A stretch of 20,932 nt of DNA from a virus. The position numbers and the translations under genes are program-made. The DNA lies in the IMG/VR virus record IMGVR_UViG_3300042372_000718, positions 1 to 20,932 of that record. One strand, 5' to 3'. The notes below the pieces were generated by a model that was not told where the DNA came from, searched no databases, and was given only the letters and a program-made list of their open reading frames with translations. This document shows, one piece after another, positions 7,340 through 20,932 of the stretch (position 1 is its first letter; every line of letters begins with the position of its first letter).

Positions 7340-8751
7340 GCAAGCTCTACGTCCCCCGCCCTTGGCAGCCCGCCATGATCGACCACGTCTGCGACACGGC
7401 GCGGGCTGGCCAATGGGCTGGCATGGGCACGGGCAAGACCTCGGCCACGCTGGCCGCCCTCGACCTGCTGCACCTCTGCGGCGAGGTCACGCGACCGGCG
7501 CTGGTCATCGCGCCCAAGCGGGTGGCCGAGCACACTTGGCCAGACGAGGTCAGGAAGTGGGACTTCTGCGCGGGCTGGCAGGTCGAGACGATCCTCGGCA
7601 CACCGGCCGATCGGACCAGCGTACTCAACCGCGTACGCCGCGGAGGCGTACCGCTGGCCACGATCAACTACGAGAACCTGCCGTGGCTGGTCGAGAAGCT
7701 CGACGGCGAGTGGCCCTTCGGCGTCGTCGTCGCCGACGAGAGCACCAAGCTGAAGAGCTTCCGCGGCGGCTTCCGCACGCACGCGACCACCGGCAAGACC
7801 TTCTACCGCGGCGGCGGATCGCAGCGGGCCCGGGCCTTGGGGCGCGTCGCCCATCGCACCGCCCGGTGGATCAACCTGACGGGCACCCCAGCCCCGAACG
7901 GGTTGCAAGACCTATGGGGTCAGGGCTGGTTCCTCGACGCTGGCCAGCGGCTGGGCCGCACCTTCGAGAGCTTCAAGGACAGGTGGTTCCAGACCTCCTT
8001 CAACGGCTTCGGCATGGACCCCCTGCCCTTCGCGCAGGCGGAGATCGAGAGCGCCCTGCACGACATCTGCCTGACCACCGAGGTGCCGGTCGAAAAGCCG
8101 CTGGTCAACGAGATCAGGGTCGAGCTGCCAGACAGGGCCCGGGCCCAGTACCGCGAGATGGAGAAGAGGATGTGGACCGAGATCAAGGCGGTCGGCATCG
8201 AGGCGACCAACGCCGCCGCCCGCACGGGCAAGTGTTTGCAGATAGCCAACGGAGCGATCTATGACAACGAAGAGAACAAGGCTTGGCACGAAGTGCACGG
8301 AGCCAAACTGGACGCCTTGGAGAGTGTGGTCGAGGAGAGCGGAGGAGCACCAGTCCTCGTCGCCTATAACTTCCGACACGACCTCGAGCGATTGCAGAAA
8401 GCCTTCCCCGCAGGCATCGACCTGTCGACGTCGGCTGGCCTGCGCCGCGCTAAGGCAGGCGAGGGTCGAGTTTGGTTTGCGCATCCAGCCAGCCTCGGAC
8501 ACGGGGTAGACGGGCTGCAAGAGCACTGCAACATCGTCGCCTTCTTCGGCCTGAACTGGAACCTCGAAGAGCACGACCAGATCATCGAGCGCGTGGGCCC
8601 CATGCGCCAACAGCAGGCGGGCAAGAAGCGCGCCGTCTACGTCCACTACATCCTCGCCACCGGCACCGTGGATGAACTCGCACTAGTCCGGCTCACCACC
8701 AAGCGAAGCGTCCAGCAGATCATGCTCGACGCCATGAAGAGGAACACATGA
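7336..8751 (+). CDS. SNF2-type DEAD/H-box helicase/translocase
   Basis: A 471-residue superfamily 2 ATPase of the short phage SNF2 type. The GTG start at 7336 overlaps the upstream stop. Motifs in order: Q-like opening RPWQPAMIDH (8-17), Walker A GMGTGKTSA (29-37), motif Ia VIAPKRV (57-63), Walker B VVADESTKLKS (131-141, D134 and E135), motif III LTGTPAPNGLQDLWGQ (181-196), motif V HPASLGHGVDGLQ (383-395), and motif VI QIIERVGPMRQQQ (415-427). It ends with YVHYILATGTVDELAL, typical of SNF2 C-termini. All ATPase residues are present. It probably moves along duplex DNA in replication, recombination or fork remodelling. Its centre (about 8225-8480) is less G+C-rich, hinting at mosaic ancestry. 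Confidence 0.92.
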   Translation: MSKLYVPRPWQPAMIDHVCDTARAGQWAGMGTGKTSATLAALDLLHLCGEVTRPALVIAPKRVAEHTWPDEVRKWDFCAGWQVETILGTPADRTSVLNRVRRGGVPLATINYENLPWLVEKLDGEWPFGVVVADESTKLKSFRGGFRTHATTGKTFYRGGGSQRARALGRVAHRTARWINLTGTPAPNGLQDLWGQGWFLDAGQRLGRTFESFKDRWFQTSFNGFGMDPLPFAQAEIESALHDICLTTEVPVEKPLVNEIRVELPDRARAQYREMEKRMWTEIKAVGIEATNAAARTGKCLQIANGAIYDNEENKAWHEVHGAKLDALESVVEESGGAPVLVAYNFRHDLERLQKAFPAGIDLSTSAGLRRAKAGEGRVWFAHPASLGHGVDGLQEHCNIVAFFGLNWNLEEHDQIIERVGPMRQQQAGKKRAVYVHYILATGTVDELALVRLTTKRSVQQIMLDAMKRNT

Positions 8752-8996
8752 CCGACGTGCTGAACGAAAACGCGCAGGGCCGCCTGCGCGGCATCATCGA
8801 GCGCCTCGAGCGTCTCGACGAGGACAAGGCCGCCGTGATGGCCGACATGAAGGAGGTCTTCGCCGAGGCCAAGGGCGAGGGCTACGACGTGAAGACCCTG
8901 CGCAAGGTGCTGCGCATCAGCAAGCAGGACAAGGCCAAGCGCCAAGAGGAAGAGGCGATCCTCGATCTCTATCTGTCAGCTTTGGGTTTGATCTAG
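8748..8996 (+). CDS. gapR: GapR family (DUF2312) nucleoid protein
   Basis: An 82-residue protein matching the alphaproteobacterial GapR/DUF2312 family across its length: GRLRGIIERLERLDEDKAAV, then MKEVFAEAKGEGYDVKTLRKVLRI, then KQDKAKRQEEEAILDLYLSA. GapR forms coiled-coil dimers and tetramers that clamp overtwisted, A+T-rich DNA, and in Caulobacter it supports topoisomerases ahead of forks. A phage copy may relieve positive supercoils during phage replication or mimic the host protein. The ATG overlaps the helicase stop (ATGA), with GAGG about six bases upstream. It ends the rightward block and is followed by the convergent terminator. Family call strong; phage role inferred. Confidence 0.92.
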   Translation: MTDVLNENAQGRLRGIIERLERLDEDKAAVMADMKEVFAEAKGEGYDVKTLRKVLRISKQDKAKRQEEEAILDLYLSALGLI

Positions 8997-9787: not shown

Positions 9788-10111
9788 TCAGCGGGCCCAG
9801 AAGGCGAACCAAGGGGCGTTGATGGCACGGTAGGCACGCTGGTCGCGCGCCTCGCACATTTGGATGACGGCGAGGCCGTCCTTCTTGTCGCGCTCCGACT
9901 GGGTCAGGCGGCCCGTCTCGTCGAGGGCGTAGTTGCGCCAGTCGTCGAGGGGCACGCCGCTGTCGGCGAGCGTGGCGTGGCCGACGGGGGTGCCGAGAAT
10001 GGCCGCCCCGAAGGTCGAGCAACCCTCAACAGGCGCTGACAGCTTGGAGCTTGCACAGCTGGTAGCGAGCGACGCGCTCGCGATCAGCAGGATCAGCTTC
10101 GCGTACCGCAT
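9788..10111 (-). CDS. Candidate outer spanin (Rz1-like lipoprotein)
   Basis: A 107-residue protein with a short signal peptide and a likely lipobox: MRYAKLILLIASASLATSC, with C19 as the lipidation site (LATSC; position -3 is A rather than L). The mature part is soluble, with few prolines. The gene starts inside the upstream membrane-protein gene in another frame (86-base overlap). Its start is fixed by a perfect AGGAGG six bases upstream. A TM protein gene followed by an overlapping lipoprotein gene next to an endolysin is the classic Rz/Rz1 layout. The pair would span the periplasm and fuse the two membranes at lysis. Sequence similarity to known Rz1 proteins is not evident, so the call rests on architecture. 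Confidence 0.72.
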   Translation of the reverse strand: MRYAKLILLIASASLATSCASSKLSAPVEGCSTFGAAILGTPVGHATLADSGVPLDDWRNYALDETGRLTQSERDKKDGLAVIQMCEARDQRAYRAINAPWFAFWAR

Positions 10112-10337
10112 CTTGAGCCTCCTGTACTTCGGTCTGGGTGGCGGCGTCGGCCGCCGCGTTGTGGATGACGATGTCGAAGCTCTCGCGCGCCGTGTCGGTG
10201 CGCGCGTCGGCGATGGTGGCTTGGTCGCCCGCCTGATCGGCCGCGGTGCAGGCCCCTCGCCACGAGAGCAGGGCCAGCACGGCGACGACGATAACGGCGA
10301 GGATCAGCCAAGTGCGCAGGGGGAGCAGGTTCTTCAC
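10026..10337 (-). CDS. Candidate inner spanin (Rz-like)
   Basis: A 103-residue protein with a short basic N-terminus (MKNLLPLRT), one membrane helix (about 10-26, WLILAVIVVAVLALLSW), and a charged helical periplasmic part (ARTDTARESFD, EVQEAQDAVREADPADRERV). It has a C-terminal Cys and internal cysteines (C30, C95, C103). This is the topology of Rz-type inner spanins. It uses a GTG start in a GTGA overlap with the M15 endolysin stop. Its last 86 bases are also the start of the lipoprotein gene in another frame. With that lipoprotein it should complete outer-membrane disruption after endolysin action. Cysteines could give disulfide dimers, as in known spanins. Confidence 0.75.
   Translation of the reverse strand: MKNLLPLRTWLILAVIVVAVLALLSWRGACTAADQAGDQATIADARTDTARESFDIVIHNAAADAATQTEVQEAQDAVREADPADRERVARYQLCKLQAVSAC
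10118..10123 (-). promoter_or_regulatory. AGGAGG ribosome-binding site inside the inner spanin gene
   Basis: A consensus Shine-Dalgarno on the minus strand, six bases from the ATG at 10111. Its presence within the coding sequence of the inner spanin candidate shows that the overlapping lipoprotein gene is really translated. Confidence 0.85.
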
Positions 10338-10717
10338 GGGTACTTCCTCCGGTCCAGCTCGATGTGGGGCCCGTCGCGCAGGCTCTTCCAGTCGCCGCCC
10401 CAGATGATCGGGATGTTCAGCTCCTTGGACGCCCGCTTGAAGGCGTCGGCGACGGGGCCGTAGAGCGGCCAGTCCCAGCGCACCTTGCCGCCGATCAGCA
10501 CGGCGAAGTCGATGGCGTGGCCGGTGATGTGGCGGCTGTTCAGGGTCTTGGACGCCTTCGCCTCGAACAGCTCCTTCTGCCGGGCGCGCGTCCGCAGGCC
10601 CTCGGTGATCAGGAAATCGTTGGGGCTGTAGGACAGAGCGAGGTGCGCGACCTTGACCAGATCGGGGTGGACGCCCTTCAGGCGGGATAGGGATCGGGAA
10701 CCGAAGACGTAGCTCAT
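10334..10717 (-). CDS. Endolysin: M15 L-Ala-D-Glu/D-Ala-type peptidase
   Basis: A 127-residue peptidoglycan peptidase of the M15 (VanY/Ply500-like) family. Zinc ligands are visible in the expected spacing: SRHITGHAIDF with H63 and D70, then DGPHIEL with H118 and E120. The N-terminal half has the family helix and the substrate-loop pattern LITEGLRTRARQKELFEAK. The length matches single-domain phage M15 endolysins. There is no signal peptide, so it needs a holin for export. The start at 10717 is chosen over an upstream in-frame ATG because it overlaps the holin-like stop (ATGA) and has GGAAG upstream. It cuts peptide cross-links of the cell wall during lysis, in a cassette with holin and spanin candidates. 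Confidence 0.9.
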   Translation of the reverse strand: MSYVFGSRSLSRLKGVHPDLVKVAHLALSYSPNDFLITEGLRTRARQKELFEAKASKTLNSRHITGHAIDFAVLIGGKVRWDWPLYGPVADAFKRASKELNIPIIWGGDWKSLRDGPHIELDRRKYP

Positions 10718-10959
10718 GGCTTCTTCCAACTTGCGACGATGCGGGCGAGGTCGGAGGCTGACGCGCCGCCCATGTAGAGCAGCGCGAAGAAGGCCTGCGA
10801 TCCGATCAGGGCGAGCGCCACGTCGCGCAGCGGCCCGCCCTCGGTCAGCTTCCAGACGATGGCGGCCAGCAGGATCGTGGTCGACACGACGTAGCCGATG
10901 GTGACCCAGCGACGCCAGTGGAACGAGGGCTCGGGGAGGGGGTCTTGCTGATCGATCAT
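10714..10959 (-). CDS. Holin-like membrane protein
   Basis: An 81-residue protein with a hydrophilic N-terminus (MIDQQDPLPEPSFHWRR), two likely membrane helices (about 18-37, VTIGYVVSTTILLAAIVWKL; and 46-63, DVALALIGSQAFFALLYM), and a basic end (VASWKKP). Size, two-helix topology, charged tail and position directly before the M15 endolysin fit a holin that forms pores and times lysis. It is linked by ATGA overlaps to the coiled-coil membrane protein upstream and to the endolysin downstream. The family name is not recognised. The neighbouring one-helix protein could be the holin instead, with this one as antiholin. Confidence 0.72.
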   Translation of the reverse strand: MIDQQDPLPEPSFHWRRWVTIGYVVSTTILLAAIVWKLTEGGPLRDVALALIGSQAFFALLYMGGASASDLARIVASWKKP

Positions 10960-11193: not shown

Positions 11194-12942
11194 CTATCCG
11201 ACAATCCAGTTGGTTCCGTTGTACCAGACGGGTACAGTGTTGCCGCCGCCACCCGCGCCGACGTTGTGGCCGTAGGCGCTGCTGCTGCTGTCCGTGACGA
11301 TGGCGCGCGTGCCGGTGGCGAGCCCGACGAAAGCGTTCAGCGTCGCCACCGGCGCGGGCGTGTGCACCAGCCTGTTGTGCCGGTAGACGTTGCCGATGTT
11401 GATCTGGTTGCTGGCGGTCGGGCTGTCGCAATCGACGCCGGAACCGATGGCGATGTTGCTGCTGCCGCTGGTGTTCGAGCCACCGGCGTCGAAGCCGAGT
11501 GCGGTGTTGTTGCTGCCCCCGACCGTGAGTATCAAGGCCTGCGTGCCGACGGCGGTGTTGTAGCTGCCGGTGCTGATGTCGAGGCCTGCTTGGAAGCCGA
11601 GGCCTGTGTTGTAGCTGCCGCTGGTAACGTCTTGCAGGGCGCGGTGGCCGAAGCCCGAGTTGGCCGTGGAGCTGGTCATCAGCTGAAGCGTGAAGTGACC
11701 GACGGCGGTGTTCTCGTTGCCGCTCAGGTTGGCCACCAGAGACTGACTTCCCACCGCCACGTTGCTGCTGCCGGTGGTGTTGGCGCGCATCGCGTAGAAG
11801 CCGACGGCGACGTTTCCGCCACCGCTCGTGTTGACGGCCTTTGCCTCTTGGCCGACGGCTACGTTCTGGACGCCGCTGTTGCTGACGTTGCCGAGCGCGG
11901 TGGTGCCCAAGACGGTGTTCGAGGCGATACCACCGCCGCCCCTGCCGACCGTGTGGCCAGCGGCCGTCAAGGTCGAGAAGACGCCCGTGCCGCCCGTGAT
12001 CGCGACCGCGTTGGCGTTCTGCGAGGACATGGTGCCGAGGCCGGTGACCGCGGCCTGCGCCAGCGCCCGGTCGATGCCAGTCTGCACGCGGTCGAGACCC
12101 GTCTGCACGCGGTCGAGACCCGTCTGCACGCGGTCCGCGTCAGCCAGCGCGGCGGAGGCGGCCGCAGCCGAGGCGGCGGAGAGAGCGGCCGAGGCGTCAG
12201 ACGACAAGACGGCCTGCGTGTAGCGGACGCGGATGCGGCTGCCAGCGGGGGGAGCTTGGACGAAGGTGAGGGTCGTGCCCGAGAAGCTGTAGTCGTCGCC
12301 GCCGACCTGCACGGCACCGCTGATCGACACGTCGAGGTTGGCCAGCAGGCCCGGGTTGCCGGTCATCGCGAAAACGGTCGTCGTCCCGTCGCCGTTGTAC
12401 AGGTTGATGAAGCTGTCGGCGTAGGTGGCGATCGTCGTCAGGCCGATGGTGTCGAAGTTGGCGAAGCCGTTGGCGCTGGCGTTCCAGCCGATCAGGTTGT
12501 TGGCGACAGGCCCCGGGAGGGTAGCGTTGGCCGTCGAGCTGATCGGCAGCTTGAGCGAGCGCGACACGCTTTCGATGAGCTGCTGCGCGATGATCGTGAT
12601 CTTGTCGAAGGCGTCGTTGATGACGCCCGGGTAGAAGCCCCCGTTGTTGGTCAGCACCATCGACTGCAACGCGGCCACGTTCGACGTGATCGTGAGCGTG
12701 AACCCGGTGGCGAGCGGGGTCGTGAGCGTGATGGAGCCGCCCGGGTCGAGGTCTTGGTTCGCGTTGAGCGTGACCGAATAGCCGACGTCGAGCACCAAGT
12801 CGGTCTCGATGCCGCTCGCCACCACCAAGCGGACGACGCGCAGATCGGCGGCGGCGAACACCTTGAAGGCGAACGGAAACACCGTGGTCGCGTCGTTGCC
12901 GATAAAGGGCCCGGCCTTGCGGGTGCTCGATGAAATGGCCAA
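11194..12942 (-). CDS. Tail fibre with T7 gp17-like adaptor and 17-residue repeats
   Basis: A 582-residue tail fibre. Residues 1-100 match the T7 gp17-type virion-binding domain: MAISSSTRKAGPFIGNDATT, VFPFAFKVFAAADL, DVGYSV, SITLTTPL. A second segment of the same pattern follows (183-242, NGDGTTTVFAMTGNPG to SRIRVRYTQAV). An Ala-rich coiled coil with DRVQTGL heptads (about 247-296) comes next. Eight exact 17-residue repeats preceded by an 18-residue one (343-496; consensus about N-x-AVG-x-x-AL-x-x-x-TSGSS) resemble YadA-like beta-roll heads. The C-terminal cap ends VPVWYNGTNWIVG. It starts with TTG, supported by GGAG eight bases upstream and by the family N-terminus. The trimeric fibre probably binds the host surface. 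No peptidase S74 chaperone is seen. Confidence 0.92.
   Translation of the reverse strand: MAISSSTRKAGPFIGNDATTVFPFAFKVFAAADLRVVRLVVASGIETDLVLDVGYSVTLNANQDLDPGGSITLTTPLATGFTLTITSNVAALQSMVLTNNGGFYPGVINDAFDKITIIAQQLIESVSRSLKLPISSTANATLPGPVANNLIGWNASANGFANFDTIGLTTIATYADSFINLYNGDGTTTVFAMTGNPGLLANLDVSISGAVQVGGDDYSFSGTTLTFVQAPPAGSRIRVRYTQAVLSSDASAALSAASAAAASAALADADRVQTGLDRVQTGLDRVQTGIDRALAQAAVTGLGTMSSQNANAVAITGGTGVFSTLTAAGHTVGRGGGGIASNTVLGTTALGNVSNSGVQNVAVGQEAKAVNTSGGGNVAVGFYAMRANTTGSSNVAVGSQSLVANLSGNENTAVGHFTLQLMTSSTANSGFGHRALQDVTSGSYNTGLGFQAGLDISTGSYNTAVGTQALILTVGGSNNTALGFDAGGSNTSGSSNIAIGSGVDCDSPTASNQINIGNVYRHNRLVHTPAPVATLNAFVGLATGTRAIVTDSSSSAYGHNVGAGGGGNTVPVWYNGTNWIVG
11455..11916 (-). repeat. 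Tandem 17-residue repeats in the tail fibre
   Basis: Exactly 154 codons: one 18-residue unit followed by eight 17-residue units (51 bp each), in register around an A/G-V/L/F-G core such as NVAVG, NTAVG and NTALG. The repeats are conserved at protein level and diverged at DNA level, so they are old. They likely form a trimeric beta-roll shaft or head. Confidence 0.9.
12080..12135 (-). repeat. 21-bp tandem repeat encoding coiled-coil heptads
   Basis: The 21-bp unit GTCTGCACGCGGTCGAGACCC occurs twice exactly (12080-12100 and 12101-12121), and the first 14 bases occur a third time (12122-12135). Each unit encodes one heptad DRVQTGL of the fibre coiled coil. The near-identical DNA, unlike the diverged repeats downstream, suggests recent expansion by slippage. 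Confidence 0.9.
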
Positions 12943-13005: not shown

Positions 13006-16000
13006 TCACTGGGTCTTGCTCTCCGGCGAAGGCGCGCCGGTAATCGCGCCGCGGATCGCGTCCGCCGTGCTGGTCGGCTGGATTTCGCCTTGGGCAACAC
13101 CGACCATATAACCGGCGGGGCGGCCGACAGCACCGAGCGGCAGCCCGGTCATGACGCCCAGCAGGTTCGCCGTGTTGCGGACGTCTTGGCGGTTGAACTC
13201 TTTGCCTTCGACGATGCCTTGGTAGATGGCATAGGGCACGCCCAGCCCACCTTCGATCACCGACACGGAAGGCGAGAGCGAGAGGCGGTCGTCGTAGCGG
13301 GCCTCGGTCGTCGTGCCAATGAGCGCGTTCACTACCGTCCCCGCGATGGGGACGGCGGCGGCAGCGAACTTGAACTGCGACATAAAGAACATCTGCAACA
13401 GCTCGTCGACGTAGCCGTCCTCCTCGTCGTCCTCGAGGCCGCCGCGGAGGGCCACGGCGATCGCTTCGCCGATGAAGGCGGGGATCGCCACCACGTTCAG
13501 GTAGACGTAGAACAGGCGGCCCGCCTTCTGCCTGAAGTTCAGGTCGCCGTTGGCGAGCAGCCTGAACTCGGCCACGCCCAAGTTGGCCGCCATGTTGAAG
13601 TAGCCAGCGAACTGCGTGAATATCCGCATCACCGGATGGCCCGTCTCGAAGCGCGCAATGTCGGTCGGCGTCATCGAGTGCTGGGTCTCGCGGATCACGC
13701 TGTCGGCGAAACGGGCCGCGTTCTTCTCGCTCTCGCCTTTGATGATCGCTTGGTTGAAGGCACCCGTCCAGATGACGACGTCCATCTGGTTCTGCAACGC
13801 CGATTGCAGGACGTAGGCGTGGCGCATGGCGAAGGCTTGCGCTTGGTCGAGCGCGTTGGGGTCCAGCTTGGTGATCTCGGTGATGGCCTGCCGCGCCTCG
13901 AAGATGTCGGTGTTGGCGCGGTTGGTCAGCAGCTGGGACCGGGCGAGGGCAGCTTCCGAGACACCCTTCGGGTCTCGCGTGAAGGCCCACAGGGCGTCGG
14001 CCAGACGGCGGGGCTTGACCCGCACGGCGGCCATAGACATGCCGGTCAGCTGCTGCGCCGTGTTCACGACGTTGGCGAACATGAGCTGCATGCCGACGTT
14101 GCGACGCATGCCGTTGAAGAAGCGGTCGAAGGCTTTACCGCCGCTGCCCTTCATCGGGGTCTCGACCAGCTGCTTGGCGGAGCGTTGCAGCCAAGGCAGC
14201 AGCAGCTCGGTGGAAGCCGACGGGTCGTAGTCTTGCAGCGCCTTCGAGAAGCCCTTGTCCTTGAGGAGCCGGGCGACGTCGCGGACCGGCGGACCCAAGT
14301 GCGTGAAGCGCAGCACCTTGTCGAGGTGCTGCGACAGCAGGCCAAGGTTCAGCGCCAGCTCGCGGTTGTAGTTTTCCTTGCGCCCCTTGGTGAAGCCGTT
14401 CGAGGCGGCGGGGAACATGGCGCTGTCGCCGCCTTCGATGGCTTCCTGTTCCGCACGGAGGGCTGCGTCCTGCACCAAGAGGGTGTCGGTCAGGGCGGGG
14501 ACGTAGCCGCCGCGCAGTTCGCCGAAGGGGGTGATGACGGGGTCGGCGCTGACCTCGTCGAAGTAGCGGCCGTAGATGGCGAAGTGCGCCCGCTGCGCGC
14601 CGGGCTTGGTTTCCTCGAGCAAGTCCCAGACCGACTGGACGAATATCCAGTCGCGCTGCGTGATGGTGCCGTCGGCGTGCATGCGGTCGAGCATGGCCTG
14701 CCAGCGGCTGTCGTCGAGCGACCCGTCCTCGCGCAGCTTGCCCCACTTCCAGCCGAGCAGCAGCTTGGACTTGTTCGAGCCGTTGCCGCTGTGCAGCAGC
14801 GCGTGGAGCAGCTCCATCTTGCCGTTGAAGATGTGGCCGATCTCGGGCGACTTGATGTCGCGTGGCCCCATGTCGTCCCGCACGGTCTCGAGCAGGGCGC
14901 GGAGACGCCGGGTGTAGTCGCCGCTCTCGGCGGTGTAGCGGTCGGCGGCCTCGGAGATCGGGTTCCAGATGTAGCGGGTGAAGGGCCCCTGCTCGCCGAT
15001 CGGGTCGGTGCCGCGGGCCCAAGTCTCGACGCGCGTCATGGCGGCGCGCACACCGAGCAGCATGTGGTCGAACCGCTGGCGGGGTGTAGGCGCGCGGGTG
15101 TAGCCGCCCTCTTTGCCCGGCTTGCGCAGCTGCTCGAGCCGGACCCGCAGCTCGGTGCTGACCCGCTCGCGGTCGATCATCTGACCGTCGATCTCCATCT
15201 GCTTGGTCCGCTTCGAGAGCGCCCAGAGCTGGTTGACGGTGTCGCGCAGGGCTTGGAACTCTTCGTAGGTCAGCTGGTCGACCGGCTTGGCGTTGACCCG
15301 GGCGTTGTCGATGAAGGGGGCGAGGTCGGTGTAGAGCGTCGGGTCGTACTGCTTGAGCAGGTCCATGTAGCCGATCGGGTCGTTCTTCACCCGACCGACG
15401 CCGTGCAGGGCCAAGATCGCGCGGGCGGCGTTGACCAAGTTCATGTCGCGGCTGCGGCCGATGCTGTCGTCCTTGGCGCTGACGATCCGCGTGAAGAGAC
15501 GCATCGTCTTCTCGCCGTCTTTCTGCGCCTTCTGCACGGCGTGGCCGGTGTGCAGGTTGATCAGCTGGTTGCGCTTCGCAGCAGCGAAGCCCGGCAGGTC
15601 GTCGTTCCTGAGCGCCTTCTCGGCCGTCTTGGCGGCGCGAGCTTGGGCAGCGATGTATTGCTGCGGCCGCAGACGCCGCATCTCGAGCCGGTTGACGACG
15701 CTGTTGGCGAACAGCTTGGCGGCGCTGTTCAGGATCGACCGCTTGCCGACCGCCTTGTCCGCCATCGCCATCTCGGCTTGGACGAACTTGGCCCGGGCCT
15801 CGTTGGCGACCGCCTCGTTGGCGGCGCGATCGATCGCCTGCGCGTCGGCGAGATCGCCGTAGCGTTCCAGCATGCGCTGGTCGGTCAGGCCCTTGATCTT
15901 CTCGGCGCTGTCCTCGCCGTTGACGAGGTCGTCGATCAGGGCTTCGCCGTTGCGGTAGCCGAACATGCTGGCGACCTCGTCGGGGTGCATGCCGTCGGTG

Positions 16001-19000
16001 CCGACCTCGGCGTACTTGCCGCCGCGGCGCAGCTTGGCCCAAGCGGGGCCTTCGGGCGCAGCTGCGAACAGGCCGACGGGGCCCGCAGGGCGAGCGGGCG
16101 CGTCGCCGTAAAGCGCCTTCAGGGTGGCGAGGTCGAGCTTGGCCGCGTTTTCGACAGGCTGACCGTTCTCGCCCAGACCGCGGCGCAGGAAGGCGCGGGC
16201 CCTGTTGACGGGCTCGGCCATGACTTCGGCCGTGACCTCGGCGCGGATCGCCTTGCGCTGCTCTTCGCCTTCGCGCTGGAGCTGGCGCAGGTAGCGGTCC
16301 TTGGCACCCGAGGCCCAGCGCATGTCGCGCGCGCTGCGCTGCTCGAGCTGCTCGATGGCCGTGGCCGTAGCGTCGCCCGCGAGCAGCTGGTACTCCCGCC
16401 ATTCGTCTTCGCTGGCGAACTCGGGCTTGCTGGTGAAGGATGGCGTCAGCCCGCGGACCTGTTCCATCTCCGCGATCTCGGCCTCGCTGGCCAGCATGCG
16501 GTCCATGACGGCGCGGACGTCGTCGGTCAGCTCGACGTTGAGATCGGTCAGCGACCTGTAGACGTTCTTCAGCCACCCCGAGAAGCGGCGGAACTGGTCG
16601 ACCAGCGCCAAGCTCGGGGACTTGCCCTCGAAGTGGTAGGCCTCGAAGCCGCGGGCCCACTTCTCGTGGAACGGCCGCCGCTCCTCGAGCGACATCGTGT
16701 TCCATTCGGCGAGCGTCATGCCCGGCCGCATCCAGTTCAGGATCGTGGCCATGTCGGCGACGATGTCGGGCGGCGCGTCGGTGGCGTTGGCCATGTCGGC
16801 CGTCGCCTCGAGGAAGAAGTGCCCCGTCTCGTGGATGAAGGTGGAGAGGTCGGCCTTGCGCAGCAGGCTGATGACGGAGGGGGTCTGGCTGATGTCCGCG
16901 CCGAAGGCGATCTGGCCGCGGGGCGTCTCGCCGTCTTTCTGGAACAGGGCGAAGCCCGCACGCGCGGCCTCGGCCAGCTCGGGCGTGATGAGGAAGCCGT
17001 TCTGGATGCCGAGCGAAGTGCGCGGGCGCAGCAGGCGTTCGCGTTCGTTGGCGCTCTCCTCGCGGATGACATCAGCGGCGAAGGTGTCACCGCGTGCTTC
17101 GGCTTCGGCGATGCGGCGACCGGCCGCGTCGAGGTAGGGGGATCGGCCGCGCCCTTCCAGCTGGCGCTGCGTCTCCTCGAGATAGCTGTCGAGACGCTCC
17201 CGCGCGCGGGCGATGCCACCCTCGTCGGCGATCAGCATCTCGTGTGCCAGCAGCTCCCGGCGGACCTCCTCCCCGGTCGCGCGATCGGCGATGATCGCTT
17301 CCCGATCCGGCGTGGGGAACATGTCGAACTTCTCGACGCGCGAGCCGTACTTCTTGATGAGGGCGTTCGCCGTGTTGATGACGGTGCCCTCGTAGAAGAA
17401 CGTCCCGTCGTCGTTGGTCTTGCCGCCGTTCTGCTGGTTGCCGTTGATGATGACGACGCGCTCGAAGCCGTTGTCGGCGGCGTAGCGGATCATCCGCTTC
17501 ATGAGCAGGGCGTCCCAGCTCTTCTGGAAGGGGCCCTCGGGGATGCCTTGGCCGAGGCTCTGGAACGCCTGATCGGCTTCGTTCGCTCGCAGGTTGGCGT
17601 CCTCGGCCTGCTGCCGCAGGAACAGGAGGGGATCGGTCTGACCGTCGGTGGTCTCGGTCGAGGTCACCCAGTCTGGGCTGCGCCCTATGTAGGCAGATTG
17701 GCGGTAGGCTCGGTTGAGCACGCCGACGGCGGTCGGGTCTTGCGCATCGACGAGTTGCTGCCGCAGGCGGTAGGCCTCGTTCGCGTGCCGCTCGGCCAAA
17801 GCGTGGCCGACGGTTCCCTCGACCCTGTCCGCCATACCGCGGTCGACTTCTTGCTGGGCGACGCTGCGGTAGGTTGCTGCGGTCTCGTCCAGCCGGTCCG
17901 CGGTGGCGTTCACGAAGGTCGTGGCGGCGGCGTCGAAGGCGAGCATCGCCTCCTTGCGGTATTCGGTGGCTTGTTGGCGCTGCTCCGGTGTGGGCGGGAC
18001 GGCGTAGCCTTTGTCCCGGCCCATCTGGTGCCAGTCGCTTTGCAGCTCCCCGATCACCATCGTCTTCGGCTCGCCCATCTTCACGGGGGCTTCGGCGATG
18101 CGGGCGTGGGCGACGACGTTGCTCTGGTCCCAGTGCGTACCGGGGCCTTGGACGTTCGGCAGGCGCAGGAGGATTTCGCGGTAGGAGCCGGGCACCATGC
18201 CTTCGAGCATGTAGCTATCGAACTGGCTCTCCTGCCCCGGATCGTTTTCAATGTCCTGCTCTGCCTGCCGTTCGGCAAACGTGTACATGTCGTCGCGGTA
18301 GGCTTGGATGTTGCTCTGCTCTTCGGCGTCGTTCGCTTCCTGCGCCGCGGCGTCAGCTTCGGCTTCCGTCTCGAAGACTTCGTTCTCGTCGTTGCGTCCG
18401 AGGTTCCCCCAGAAGAGAGCCCAGCCACCTTCGACCTCGTTGACGTAGGTCTGGCCCGGGTTGAACCCGCCGCCGAACCTCTCGGTCTGTTCGACCATCG
18501 CGTCGAGGATTTCCTCGATGCGGGCGTCGAACCTTGCGTTCCTGTCGGGGTCTACCCCGCCCAGCACCACCTCGTCGAGCACCAGACCCTTGGCCCGCAC
18601 CAAGGCGAGCACGTCGTCTTTCGAGATTTTGCCGTTGGCGTCGAGCAGTGGCACGGATGGCACACCGAAGGGCACCTGATCGTCTTCGTTGGTGGTCGCC
18701 AGATCGAGCCAGTCGTTCAGCCCGATCAGGTCAAGCTCTTCCTTCTTCAGGCCCGGGCGCGGCCGGGCTTGGACGATCGTCTCCTCCATGACCGGCGTGC
18801 CGTCAGCGTTCATCATGGGCTTGTTGTCGGGCCCGCGCTTGACGCCGCGCTTGACGCTCTCGGGCTCGCCGAAGAACCGCTTCCATTCGGCGACGGTGGC
18901 GCGCTCGGGGCCCTCGTTTTCGACGGCACGTTCGACCGCCGAGTAGAAGGGATCGGACTGGAACAGCACGTTCGGTTCGGCGTCCTCGCTGACCCACAGG

Positions 19001-20932
19001 GGCAACAGGCCGACCTTCTGCGGCGCGTACTTCGTCTCGCCAGCCGACGCCGTGCGGTTGAACTCACCGTTCGGGCCGAAGTTGACGTACGAGTTCTGGC
19101 CGCGGGTCTCGGCGGTCATGGCCCTGCGCGCGAGCGGCGAGTACATCGCCGAGTGGCTGCGCCAAGCGTTGTCCTCTCCGTCCGCGCGGAAGCCGTTGCC
19201 GTCCTTGATGTGGCCGAAGTAGTCGTGGACGATGCGGAAGACGTCGTTGGCCAGCAGCTGCCGCCCGTCGATAAACTCGTTCGTCTTCTCGAGCATCGGG
19301 TTGCCCGCGAAGTTGTCGCCCTCGGAGCCGAACCCGTCGTCGGTCGGGAAGACCCACAGGTGGTTGTTCTCGAGGACGTCCGAGATCGCCATGCGCGGCG
19401 AGGCGGCGTAGGGGTCGCCGGTCTTCTCGTAATCGATGAACTCGATCTTCAGGCCGGTGGCCTTGATGACCTGATACTGCGCCACCGTCTCGTCGATCAG
19501 GGCGCGGTAAGAAGCCTTGACCTCGGGGTTCTCCGGGTCGTGCTTCATGTCCTCGAAGGCCTGCGCGATACGCGCGGCGCGTTCGGGGTTGACCTTGATG
19601 TAGTCGGTCGGCGGGCGGTAGGCGATGCCAGCGCGCGAGACGTAGTCGATAGCAGCCTGCCGCGCGACCGGCGACGGGATGTTGGCTTTCGGCGCGCCTT
19701 GTAGAGGAAGCTCTACGGGGCCTTGGTTGAAGACGCCGCCAGCCTGCGCGACAGCGCGATCAGCCGCGAGACGGCCTGCGTCTCCGTCATCGACTTCGAT
19801 CCCTTTGGACCGGAGGAGCTTGGCTGCTCCGCTTGAGTTGGTGCCTTCACTTGTCCGTATCCCTTGCGCGCCCCAGAGGCGCTTCTCGAAAAACCACAGG
19901 ACCGCTTGAACGTCGCCCGCCGGGAGGCCGAACTCCGTGGACAGGTCTTCCGTCAGGCGGATAAGCATCGCCCGGTCAGTGTCGTTGGGCTGCCCGACGA
20001 TGCCGGTCTTGGGATCGATGGGGTTTTCAAAGAGACGGCCGAGATGGCGACGGTATGTGCGAATGTACCACAGGTCAATGGTCACGTCGCCAGCGTCGAT
20101 GTCGTAGCCCTGAAGGCCCATCGTGTAGGGGCCCAGCTTTTCCCCGAAGGCGAGGTAGCCCGGCGTGTCGGCCCCCGCCAGCTCGGCCTTGGTCGTGAAG
20201 CGGCCCGTCTTGTAGATGCCCGCCTCGGTCATCGCCGCGTTGACGGCGGCGCGCGGCTGGGGCGTGATGAGCCAGTCCATCGCCGCCTGAAGGCTTCCCT
20301 CGCGCTCGATGAGGTACGCCACGTTGGCGAGCATCTTCTCGTTGTCAGGGTTGCGCGGCCCCCAGCCGGTGGGCCGGGTGACCATTTCCCCCGTCTTGTT
20401 GGACTTGAAGGTGCTCATCAGCACGTCGGCACCGCGGGCGAGCGCGGCGTCGGAACGCTTCACCGGCACGGTGTTGGTCTCGAGGAAAGCCTCGAAGGCC
20501 TCGGACGACCGCATGAAGGCTTCGTCAGGGTCCAGACCGCTGGAGAACAGGCCCGCAAACGTCAGGTAGAGGGAGCGGTGCGACGGTTCCGTGAGCAGCG
20601 TCGGGTAGACCCTGCCCGCCATCTCGATGGCCTTCTGCACATCTTTCGAGTACCAGCCCACGCCCGAGTTGGGCTGGTTGAGCTGCGCCCTCACCTCGTC
20701 GCTCATGGCGTCGCGAACGCGGGCGTAGTCGGCCTCGTCGCTTTCGGGGTAGAGCTTGCGCCCCTCCGTCTCCATGTGGTGCTTCGTCAGCGCCTCGGCG
20801 ACCGACTTGATCGTGACCTTGCCTTCGACGGGCAGGGGGTTGTCGAGCAGAGGGACGCCGGTCTGGTCGTACGTCGCGGCGGGGAACAGCTCCGCTGTCG
20901 CCTGCTCGCGGAAGTCTTCGGGCGGGCGGCCC
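13006..20932 (-). CDS. Giant polyvalent virion protein with zincin domain (N-terminus outside window)
   Basis: An open frame of at least 2,641 residues running off the right edge; the ATG at 20775 is internal because the frame stays open to 20932. It has the architecture of phage large polyvalent proteins, thought to be packaged and injected with the DNA. From N to C: a helical region starting GVGWYSKDVQKA (about 20650) and ending LWFFEKRLWG; a His-rich domain with VHDYFGHIKDGNGF and AWRSHSAMYSP (19.0-19.7 kb); a KKEELDLIGLNDWLDL module (about 18.7 kb); the polyvalent-protein block REILLRLP, ELQSDWHQMGR, SWDALLMKRMIRYAA (17.4-18.2 kb); a metallopeptidase motif HETGHFFLE (16819-16833); about 2 kb of coiled-coil-rich helices; and a C-terminal region GHPVMRIFTQFAGYFN with a hydrophobic segment VYLNVVAIPAFIGEAIAVAL. 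First gene seen in the late operon. No RNA polymerase motif is seen. Confidence 0.88.
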   Translation of the reverse strand, partial: GRPPEDFREQATAELFPAATYDQTGVPLLDNPLPVEGKVTIKSVAEALTKHHMETEGRKLYPESDEADYARVRDAMSDEVRAQLNQPNSGVGWYSKDVQKAIEMAGRVYPTLLTEPSHRSLYLTFAGLFSSGLDPDEAFMRSSEAFEAFLETNTVPVKRSDAALARGADVLMSTFKSNKTGEMVTRPTGWGPRNPDNEKMLANVAYLIEREGSLQAAMDWLITPQPRAAVNAAMTEAGIYKTGRFTTKAELAGADTPGYLAFGEKLGPYTMGLQGYDIDAGDVTIDLWYIRTYRRHLGRLFENPIDPKTGIVGQPNDTDRAMLIRLTEDLSTEFGLPAGDVQAVLWFFEKRLWGAQGIRTSEGTNSSGAAKLLRSKGIEVDDGDAGRLAADRAVAQAGGVFNQGPVELPLQGAPKANIPSPVARQAAIDYVSRAGIAYRPPTDYIKVNPERAARIAQAFEDMKHDPENPEVKASYRALIDETVAQYQVIKATGLKIEFIDYEKTGDPYAASPRMAISDVLENNHLWVFPTDDGFGSEGDNFAGNPMLEKTNEFIDGRQLLANDVFRIVHDYFGHIKDGNGFRADGEDNAWRSHSAMYSPLARRAMTAETRGQNSYVNFGPNGEFNRTASAGETKYAPQKVGLLPLWVSEDAEPNVLFQSDPFYSAVERAVENEGPERATVAEWKRFFGEPESVKRGVKRGPDNKPMMNADGTPVMEETIVQARPRPGLKKEELDLIGLNDWLDLATTNEDDQVPFGVPSVPLLDANGKISKDDVLALVRAKGLVLDEVVLGGVDPDRNARFDARIEEILDAMVEQTERFGGGFNPGQTYVNEVEGGWALFWGNLGRNDENEVFETEAEADAAAQEANDAEEQSNIQAYRDDMYTFAERQAEQDIENDPGQESQFDSYMLEGMVPGSYREILLRLPNVQGPGTHWDQSNVVAHARIAEAPVKMGEPKTMVIGELQSDWHQMGRDKGYAVPPTPEQRQQATEYRKEAMLAFDAAATTFVNATADRLDETAATYRSVAQQEVDRGMADRVEGTVGHALAERHANEAYRLRQQLVDAQDPTAVGVLNRAYRQSAYIGRSPDWVTSTETTDGQTDPLLFLRQQAEDANLRANEADQAFQSLGQGIPEGPFQKSWDALLMKRMIRYAADNGFERVVIINGNQQNGGKTNDDGTFFYEGTVINTANALIKKYGSRVEKFDMFPTPDREAIIADRATGEEVRRELLAHEMLIADEGGIARARERLDSYLEETQRQLEGRGRSPYLDAAGRRIAEAEARGDTFAADVIREESANERERLLRPRTSLGIQNGFLITPELAEAARAGFALFQKDGETPRGQIAFGADISQTPSVISLLRKADLSTFIHETGHFFLEATADMANATDAPPDIVADMATILNWMRPGMTLAEWNTMSLEERRPFHEKWARGFEAYHFEGKSPSLALVDQFRRFSGWLKNVYRSLTDLNVELTDDVRAVMDRMLASEAEIAEMEQVRGLTPSFTSKPEFASEDEWREYQLLAGDATATAIEQLEQRSARDMRWASGAKDRYLRQLQREGEEQRKAIRAEVTAEVMAEPVNRARAFLRRGLGENGQPVENAAKLDLATLKALYGDAPARPAGPVGLFAAAPEGPAWAKLRRGGKYAEVGTDGMHPDEVASMFGYRNGEALIDDLVNGEDSAEKIKGLTDQRMLERYGDLADAQAIDRAANEAVANEARAKFVQAEMAMADKAVGKRSILNSAAKLFANSVVNRLEMRRLRPQQYIAAQARAAKTAEKALRNDDLPGFAAAKRNQLINLHTGHAVQKAQKDGEKTMRLFTRIVSAKDDSIGRSRDMNLVNAARAILALHGVGRVKNDPIGYMDLLKQYDPTLYTDLAPFIDNARVNAKPVDQLTYEEFQALRDTVNQLWALSKRTKQMEIDGQMIDRERVSTELRVRLEQLRKPGKEGGYTRAPTPRQRFDHMLLGVRAAMTRVETWARGTDPIGEQGPFTRYIWNPISEAADRYTAESGDYTRRLRALLETVRDDMGPRDIKSPEIGHIFNGKMELLHALLHSGNGSNKSKLLLGWKWGKLREDGSLDDSRWQAMLDRMHADGTITQRDWIFVQSVWDLLEETKPGAQRAHFAIYGRYFDEVSADPVITPFGELRGGYVPALTDTLLVQDAALRAEQEAIEGGDSAMFPAASNGFTKGRKENYNRELALNLGLLSQHLDKVLRFTHLGPPVRDVARLLKDKGFSKALQDYDPSASTELLLPWLQRSAKQLVETPMKGSGGKAFDRFFNGMRRNVGMQLMFANVVNTAQQLTGMSMAAVRVKPRRLADALWAFTRDPKGVSEAALARSQLLTNRANTDIFEARQAITEITKLDPNALDQAQAFAMRHAYVLQSALQNQMDVVIWTGAFNQAIIKGESEKNAARFADSVIRETQHSMTPTDIARFETGHPVMRIFTQFAGYFNMAANLGVAEFRLLANGDLNFRQKAGRLFYVYLNVVAIPAFIGEAIAVALRGGLEDDEEDGYVDELLQMFFMSQFKFAAAAVPIAGTVVNALIGTTTEARYDDRLSLSPSVSVIEGGLGVPYAIYQGIVEGKEFNRQDVRNTANLLGVMTGLPLGAVGRPAGYMVGVAQGEIQPTSTADAIRGAITGAPSPESKTQ

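Follow-up and report, generated by a model that had tools for sequence, protein, structure and literature searches.

Gene layout of the window and the giant reading frame

The window, by which we mean the whole stretch of 20,932 bases that was analysed, is the complete IMG/VR record IMGVR_UViG_3300042372_000718, and the record itself is a fragment. The left half carries replication genes on the plus strand (exonuclease, ssDNA-binding protein, DNA polymerase, VRR-type endonuclease and helicase), and the right half carries, on the minus strand, a giant gene, a tail-fibre gene, lysis genes and a gene for a tail collar protein. The lysis genes form a cassette of an endolysin gene (10334-10729) and a spanin-like gene (10026-10337). 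The tail-fibre gene (11194-12942, minus strand), which matched PHROG tail and virion structural families, comes immediately after the giant gene, just as the preliminary description of this DNA had placed the two. The product of the tail-fibre gene has a fibre-type N-terminus and repeats such as NTALGFDAGGSNTSGSSNIAIGS, resembling intramolecular-repeat adhesins. The PADLOC models of anti-phage defence gave no match.

The giant reading frame extends from 13006 to 20931 on the minus strand and its 2,641 codons contain no stop, which bears out the earlier claim of an uninterrupted frame of more than 2,640 residues. The frame is open at the right contig edge, its 5' end lying past that edge, and since the window is the whole record, the N-terminus of the giant protein is not recoverable from it. 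In the numbering used below, residue n of the giant frame begins at window position 20931-3(n-1) on the minus strand. The GC3 value along the frame is even, at 0.85-0.93, and because this is a coding-type codon composition and relatives were found over the full length, the frame is not a chance one. A frame of 2,204 codons on the plus strand (13090-19704) was not accepted as a gene, since every relative matches on the minus strand, and it was regarded as an antisense shadow of the high-GC3 giant gene.

The Bbp10 family and the conserved C-terminal part

The profile search showed that residues 1328-2636 match PHROG 9880 with 1,117 bits, and by tblastn the Bbp10 protein of Bordetella phage BPP-1 (NP_958679.1) was 29% identical over window residues 1353-2635 (E 1e-105). 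Judged by these matches, the giant protein is a phage protein of the Bbp10 family (PHROG 9880). Bbp10 shares with it a homologous zincin and C-terminal body, and its gene is located between those for a transglycosylase and the tail fibre; it differs in having 2,052 residues, with LPD22 and PBECR1 in front and without the modules N, A and B described below. The closest intact relative, L002 (IMGVR_UViG_3300015050_001160), has a giant gene of 3,457 codons, which is preceded by the genes for tail A, tail B, two internal virion proteins and an endolysin/transglycosylase, in this order. The L002 protein lies in the same gene block and is 72% identical from window residue 1282 on, and it differs in carrying DUF7178 and an ART-PolyVal match and in being without module N. 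The L002-type order, then followed by the tail fibre, was also found in BPP-1 (bbp14-bbp9) and in the complete podovirus MW202722, and the gene order of the Bbp10 family is seen on the tail-fibre side in the window itself and on the other side in the relatives only.

The family also includes a 4,012-residue protein of Microcystis phage Mel-JY33 (L017:6854-18892), which is annotated as 'lysin'. This label, the label 'lysis protein' given to a homologue in Caulobacter phage Jess A, and the label 'crystallin beta/gamma motif' carried over from Bbp10, from which it seems to have been copied across the family, would be in line with a late-acting protein that attacks the envelope of the producing cell at the end of infection. 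However, the window possesses its own ordinary lysis cassette, the giant protein matches no peptidoglycan hydrolase family, the lytic transglycosylase is a separate, preceding gene in the relatives, and the giant gene sits within the block of internal virion protein genes. We consider such a lysis function very improbable.

As far as can be told from its conservation among the relatives, the part from about residue 1,340 to residue 2,641 is a conserved chassis, composed of a zincin and about 1,080 mostly helical residues. The zincin metallopeptidase-like domain (residues about 1340-1560; 16252-16914, minus strand) contains the motif HETGH at residues 1367-1371 (16819-16833, minus strand), which was found by sequence scan and by comparison with relatives. 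The HExxH pattern is kept in all 19 relatives that were checked, most of which had been chosen without use of the motif, and the zincin motif that had been noticed earlier in the frame proved to be real. The Bbp10 stretch homologous to this domain was placed in, or seeded, the CLCA_X family of zincin-like metalloproteases in 2013 (PMC3650047). Zincins in polyvalent proteins have been proposed to process the polypeptide (Iyer et al. 2017, PMC5512222), and the same paper notes that N4 vRNAP, in spite of its zincin domain, enters the virion without being processed.

The mostly helical C-terminal body (residues 1560-2641; 13009-16254, minus strand) was recognized from the PHROG 9880 match, an alignment of 45 sequences and an AlphaFold model, which is mostly alpha and has a mean pLDDT of 79.6. 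The model found no fold match in the PDB, and the C-terminal core found no PDB match by sequence. Near the C-terminus, a Kyte-Doolittle scan indicated two hydrophobic stretches (residues 2470-2494 and 2520-2538; 13318-13524, minus strand), with a similar stretch in six of the seven relatives scanned (L002, L003, L007, L015, L122 and L124). The C-terminal membrane segment that had been claimed for the protein stands as far as these hydrophobic stretches go, but BPP-1 Bbp10 has none above the cut-off of the scan, and membrane contact of the stretches is possible.

Exchangeable modules in the front part

Four modules, named N, A, B1 and B2, lie ahead of the zincin. Module N (residues 18-405; 19717-20880, minus strand) is exchangeable, and in the alignment of its family K265 and D286 are invariant. 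It is shared with two relatives from separate assemblies, L105 (IMGVR_UViG_3300032315_000882) and L106 (IMGVR_UViG_3300043036_000244), at 75% to 76% identity up to a boundary at residue 405 (residues 2-405 are 76% identical to residues 840-1246 of L105), and in both relatives B1, B2, the zincin and the body are collinear with those of the window; residues 652-2521 match L105 at 51% identity from its residue 1547 on. Between residues 405 and 652 the proteins differ, the place of the window's module A being taken in L105 by DUF3293 and ART-PolyVal. In the giant protein of L105 (frame from 3436), DUF3293 adjoins ART-PolyVal in this zone, at 1272-1341.

Other relatives showed further arrangements. 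In L002, a module A with 68% identity to that of the window is followed by the ART-PolyVal match, whose E value of 1.4e-6 is just under the curated cut-off, and in L112 and L044 the order is reversed, with module A before module N. The same region holds a PBECR nuclease in Bbp10, GNAT and PBECR5 in Ab9, and ART-PolyVal in L105 and L015. Because the modules are swapped and reordered among relatives that all retain the zincin and the C-terminal body, the front part can be regarded as an exchange zone, and comparison with close relatives showed that the borders between the window modules are sharp at residues 405 and 651. The order N-A-B1-B2-zincin-C was found in no other locus among those fetched. 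In this respect the earlier remark that the domain order could not be matched to a described protein holds, whereas the one domain that it had singled out as particularly unfamiliar turned out to be a common phage module (PHROG 3170).

The Pfam search of the window protein showed that no module reaches any model, the models of polyvalent-protein domains included. The earlier statement that the frame combines several such domains is thus not upheld, as no slice of the protein reaches a polyvalent model; domains of this kind, namely LPD22, ART-PolyVal and DUF7178, are present in the close relatives, partly in the N-terminal part that would lie beyond the window edge. DUF7178 was matched by two of 12 module N members (best E 2.9e-8), which suggests that module N may be weakly related to it. 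The spacing of 21 residues between K265 and D286 is like that of HhH-GPD DNA glycosylases; this candidate was rejected, with no profile support (the comparison set being poor) and no fold match.

Module B1 (residues 652-925; 18157-18978, minus strand) is weakly conserved, with 25% to 40% identity to L002, L007, L105 and L106. Module B2 (residues 926-1210; 17302-18156, minus strand) has the invariant motif E.QSDWHQ.GR..GY and a second conserved block in its alignment; its occurrences in IMG/VR number at least 529, and no Pfam model was matched by the members scanned. Among 50,697 records of cultured phages, module N and module B each gave one weak match only.

The relatives that share module N also provide an estimate of what lies past the contig edge. 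Because 839 residues in L105 and 759 residues in L106 precede the match to window residue 2, the full giant protein is probably about 3,400 to 3,480 residues long, with some 760 to 840 N-terminal residues beyond the window, and LPD22 is probably located near its start, as it is in L002, L105, L112, L122, L015 and Bbp10. Since the frame runs off the end of a contig that is itself a fragment, we also considered whether the gene might be a remnant that is decaying or chimeric, or a product of faulty assembly at the edge. We find this barely credible, given the 2,641 codons without a stop, the even codon composition, the intact catalytic motif, and the collinear joining of module N to the body in L105 and L106, where it likewise precedes B1, B2, the zincin and the C-terminal body.

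Module A (residues 406-651; 18979-19716, minus strand), which matches PHROG 3170, is absent from L105 and L106, other domains being found there. It occupies the region at 19.0-19.7 kb that had been described as a His-rich domain; with 5 His in 255 residues, the region does not merit that name. A scan with an alignment of 11 sequences confirmed module A in at least 595 places in IMG/VR, and it was also found in Mycobacterium cluster C phages and in cyanophages. Its hosts are giant proteins, proteins of 470 to 590 residues, and proteins of about 300 to 330 residues in unrelated phages. In both of the two contigs with identified portal genes, the stand-alone A gene is located between the portal gene and the head scaffold gene, a position which would fit that of packaged proteins. 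An alignment of 60 module A sequences has 31 invariant columns, including H569, D570 and H574 of the motif HDYFGH (residues 569-574; 19210-19227, minus strand), and E586, H593 and E608 further on.

The AlphaFold model of N and A together (residues 16-670) had a mean pLDDT of 87.8, mostly above 90 in N and above 85 in A, N and A being searched as one model and the A rows of its alignment including some unrelated sequence that came from N rows. When this model was compared with the PDB by Foldseek, no E value lower than 0.47 was obtained, and module A by sequence gave spurious PDB matches only. Against predicted viral structures, the same model had 31 matches with E <0.001, all of them from phages where a name or organism was given, and several were named ART-PolyVal-like or large polyvalent protein.

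The motif of module A resembles that of aromatic amino acid hydroxylases, as the bacterial PhhA proteins that were compared have HDVFGH, HDLFGH, HDFFGH or HEIFGH against the HDYFGH of module A. An assignment to this family (Biopterin_H, PF00351) was rejected, with no Pfam match and an hhalign alignment of 9 columns only, and no aromatic amino acid hydroxylase fold was among the PDB matches listed up to E 10. We put forward only tentatively, and at less than even odds, that module A could be a previously undescribed metal-dependent enzyme fold built around H569, D570, H574, E586, H593 and E608; hundreds of unrelated phages would package it, alone or fused into giant proteins, and send it in with their DNA, its target being the host or the entering genome.

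The N-terminal modules might instead help to build the virion, as spacers, core or tunnel wall, and have no effector role, the giant protein then being a structural or ejection component only. Such a role would agree with the gene position of T7 gp16, with the C-terminal hydrophobic stretches, with the lack of a demonstrated activity for N, A, B1 and B2, and with the lack of a PDB fold match for the N and A model. It is difficult to reconcile with modules that come, go and change order in front of a constant chassis, with the enzyme domains that the relatives carry in the same place (ART-PolyVal in L105 and L015, the PBECR nuclease in Bbp10, GNAT and PBECR5 in Ab9), with the occurrence of module A in proteins of about 300 to 330 residues in unrelated phages, and with its invariant residues, which are polar and active-site-like. 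We therefore regard a purely architectural role as unlikely.

A probably packaged protein with proposed cargo modules, and its known counterparts

The reading that we prefer, with a probability of roughly 0.7, is that of a giant internal virion (ejection) protein of the polyvalent type, encoded by a BPP-1-like short-tailed phage and made of a chassis and of cargo modules that are exchanged. The gene position, the size, the zincin and the exchange of cargo together argue for a protein that is packaged and ejected with the DNA, and the label 'virion protein' would follow for the window protein from its gene order. On this reading, the zincin and the helical body of about 1,080 residues would be the chassis that allows packing in the head and passage through the tail with the DNA, and N, A, B1 and B2 would be the cargo carried ahead of it and exchanged between phages. 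After reaching the envelope or the cytoplasm, this cargo would affect host targets during the first minutes of infection, and the zincin may release or mature it. We infer packaging, ejection and cleavage of the protein, as well as enzymatic activity of N, A or B2; among the papers that a literature search covered, none was found on virion mass spectrometry of Bbp10-like proteins.

In gene order, the relatives parallel T7 genes 11-17, with the giant gene at the place of the gene for gp16, the internal virion protein D, before the tail fibre. The window protein differs from T7 gp16 in being two to three times longer and in that no transglycosylase domain was found in it, the transglycosylase being a separate gene in the relatives. 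With hhalign, a weak and non-significant match to T7 gp16 was obtained around GGYxPxxYD, the most conserved motif of the giant-protein family (P 0.017 against 0.66 for the reversed control; probability 2.6%). In plan, the nearest well-studied parallel is the N4 vRNAP (gp50), an ejected protein of 3,500 residues with a C-terminal zincin subdomain and about 1,100 mostly helical residues that have no structural match (PMC12633501). Like the window protein, it is giant and has a helical body after a C-terminal zincin; unlike N4 vRNAP, the window protein has no RNA polymerase domain in the part found here, its N-terminal quarter being beyond the contig. The best P value by hhalign against a five-sequence alignment of the N4 CTD was 0.075, and no PDB match was found, in a searched copy that may lack the N4 CTD. 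In all, the C-terminal body had no significant sequence or fold match to T7 gp16, T7 gp15 or N4 vRNAP; by profile and fold search, homology to T7 gp15 or N4 vRNAP was not supported, and T7 gp16 is at most a candidate homologue.

The window protein also resembles the phage polyvalent proteins of Iyer et al. (2017, PMC5512222), which have several unrelated domains per polypeptide, a zincin, and a context of virion genes, and it differs from them in that its modules match no Pfam LPD model. Two or more unrelated domains per polypeptide, in shuffled combinations, were found both in the window protein and in its relatives. No LPD, ART-PolyVal or PBECR domain recognizable by profile was found in the window, the N-terminal part in which the relatives have LPD22 being beyond the contig.

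The window protein is of a kind already described, and its modules are the unexplained part. Few components of tailed phages are as poorly understood as the giant proteins that they eject, particularly as to which segments bring the protein out of the head and which are active inside the host. In the relatives, the chassis is conserved and the front part is exchanged, cleanly delimited at residues 405 and 651, so that the idea of chassis and cargo is directly testable. As each of the modules A and B2 occurs in more than 500 places in public virus contigs and has no Pfam model, solving either one would give an annotation to many phage proteins in a single step, and module A is additionally without a solved fold.

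Prophages with the Bbp10-family core were found in many Proteobacteria and in other bacteria. The giant-gene block is also present in the 39-kb, podovirus-like genome of Limnohabitans phage DC33 (L021, PQ492659.1), whose taxonomy line reads Inoviridae, a placement that is apparently an error. Within the window, an 82-aa gene in the left half (8748-8996, plus strand) is matched at 83% DNA identity in part of the 321-kb genome of Brevundimonas phage vB_BpoS-Gurke, which may point to a Caulobacterales host or to a recent exchange.
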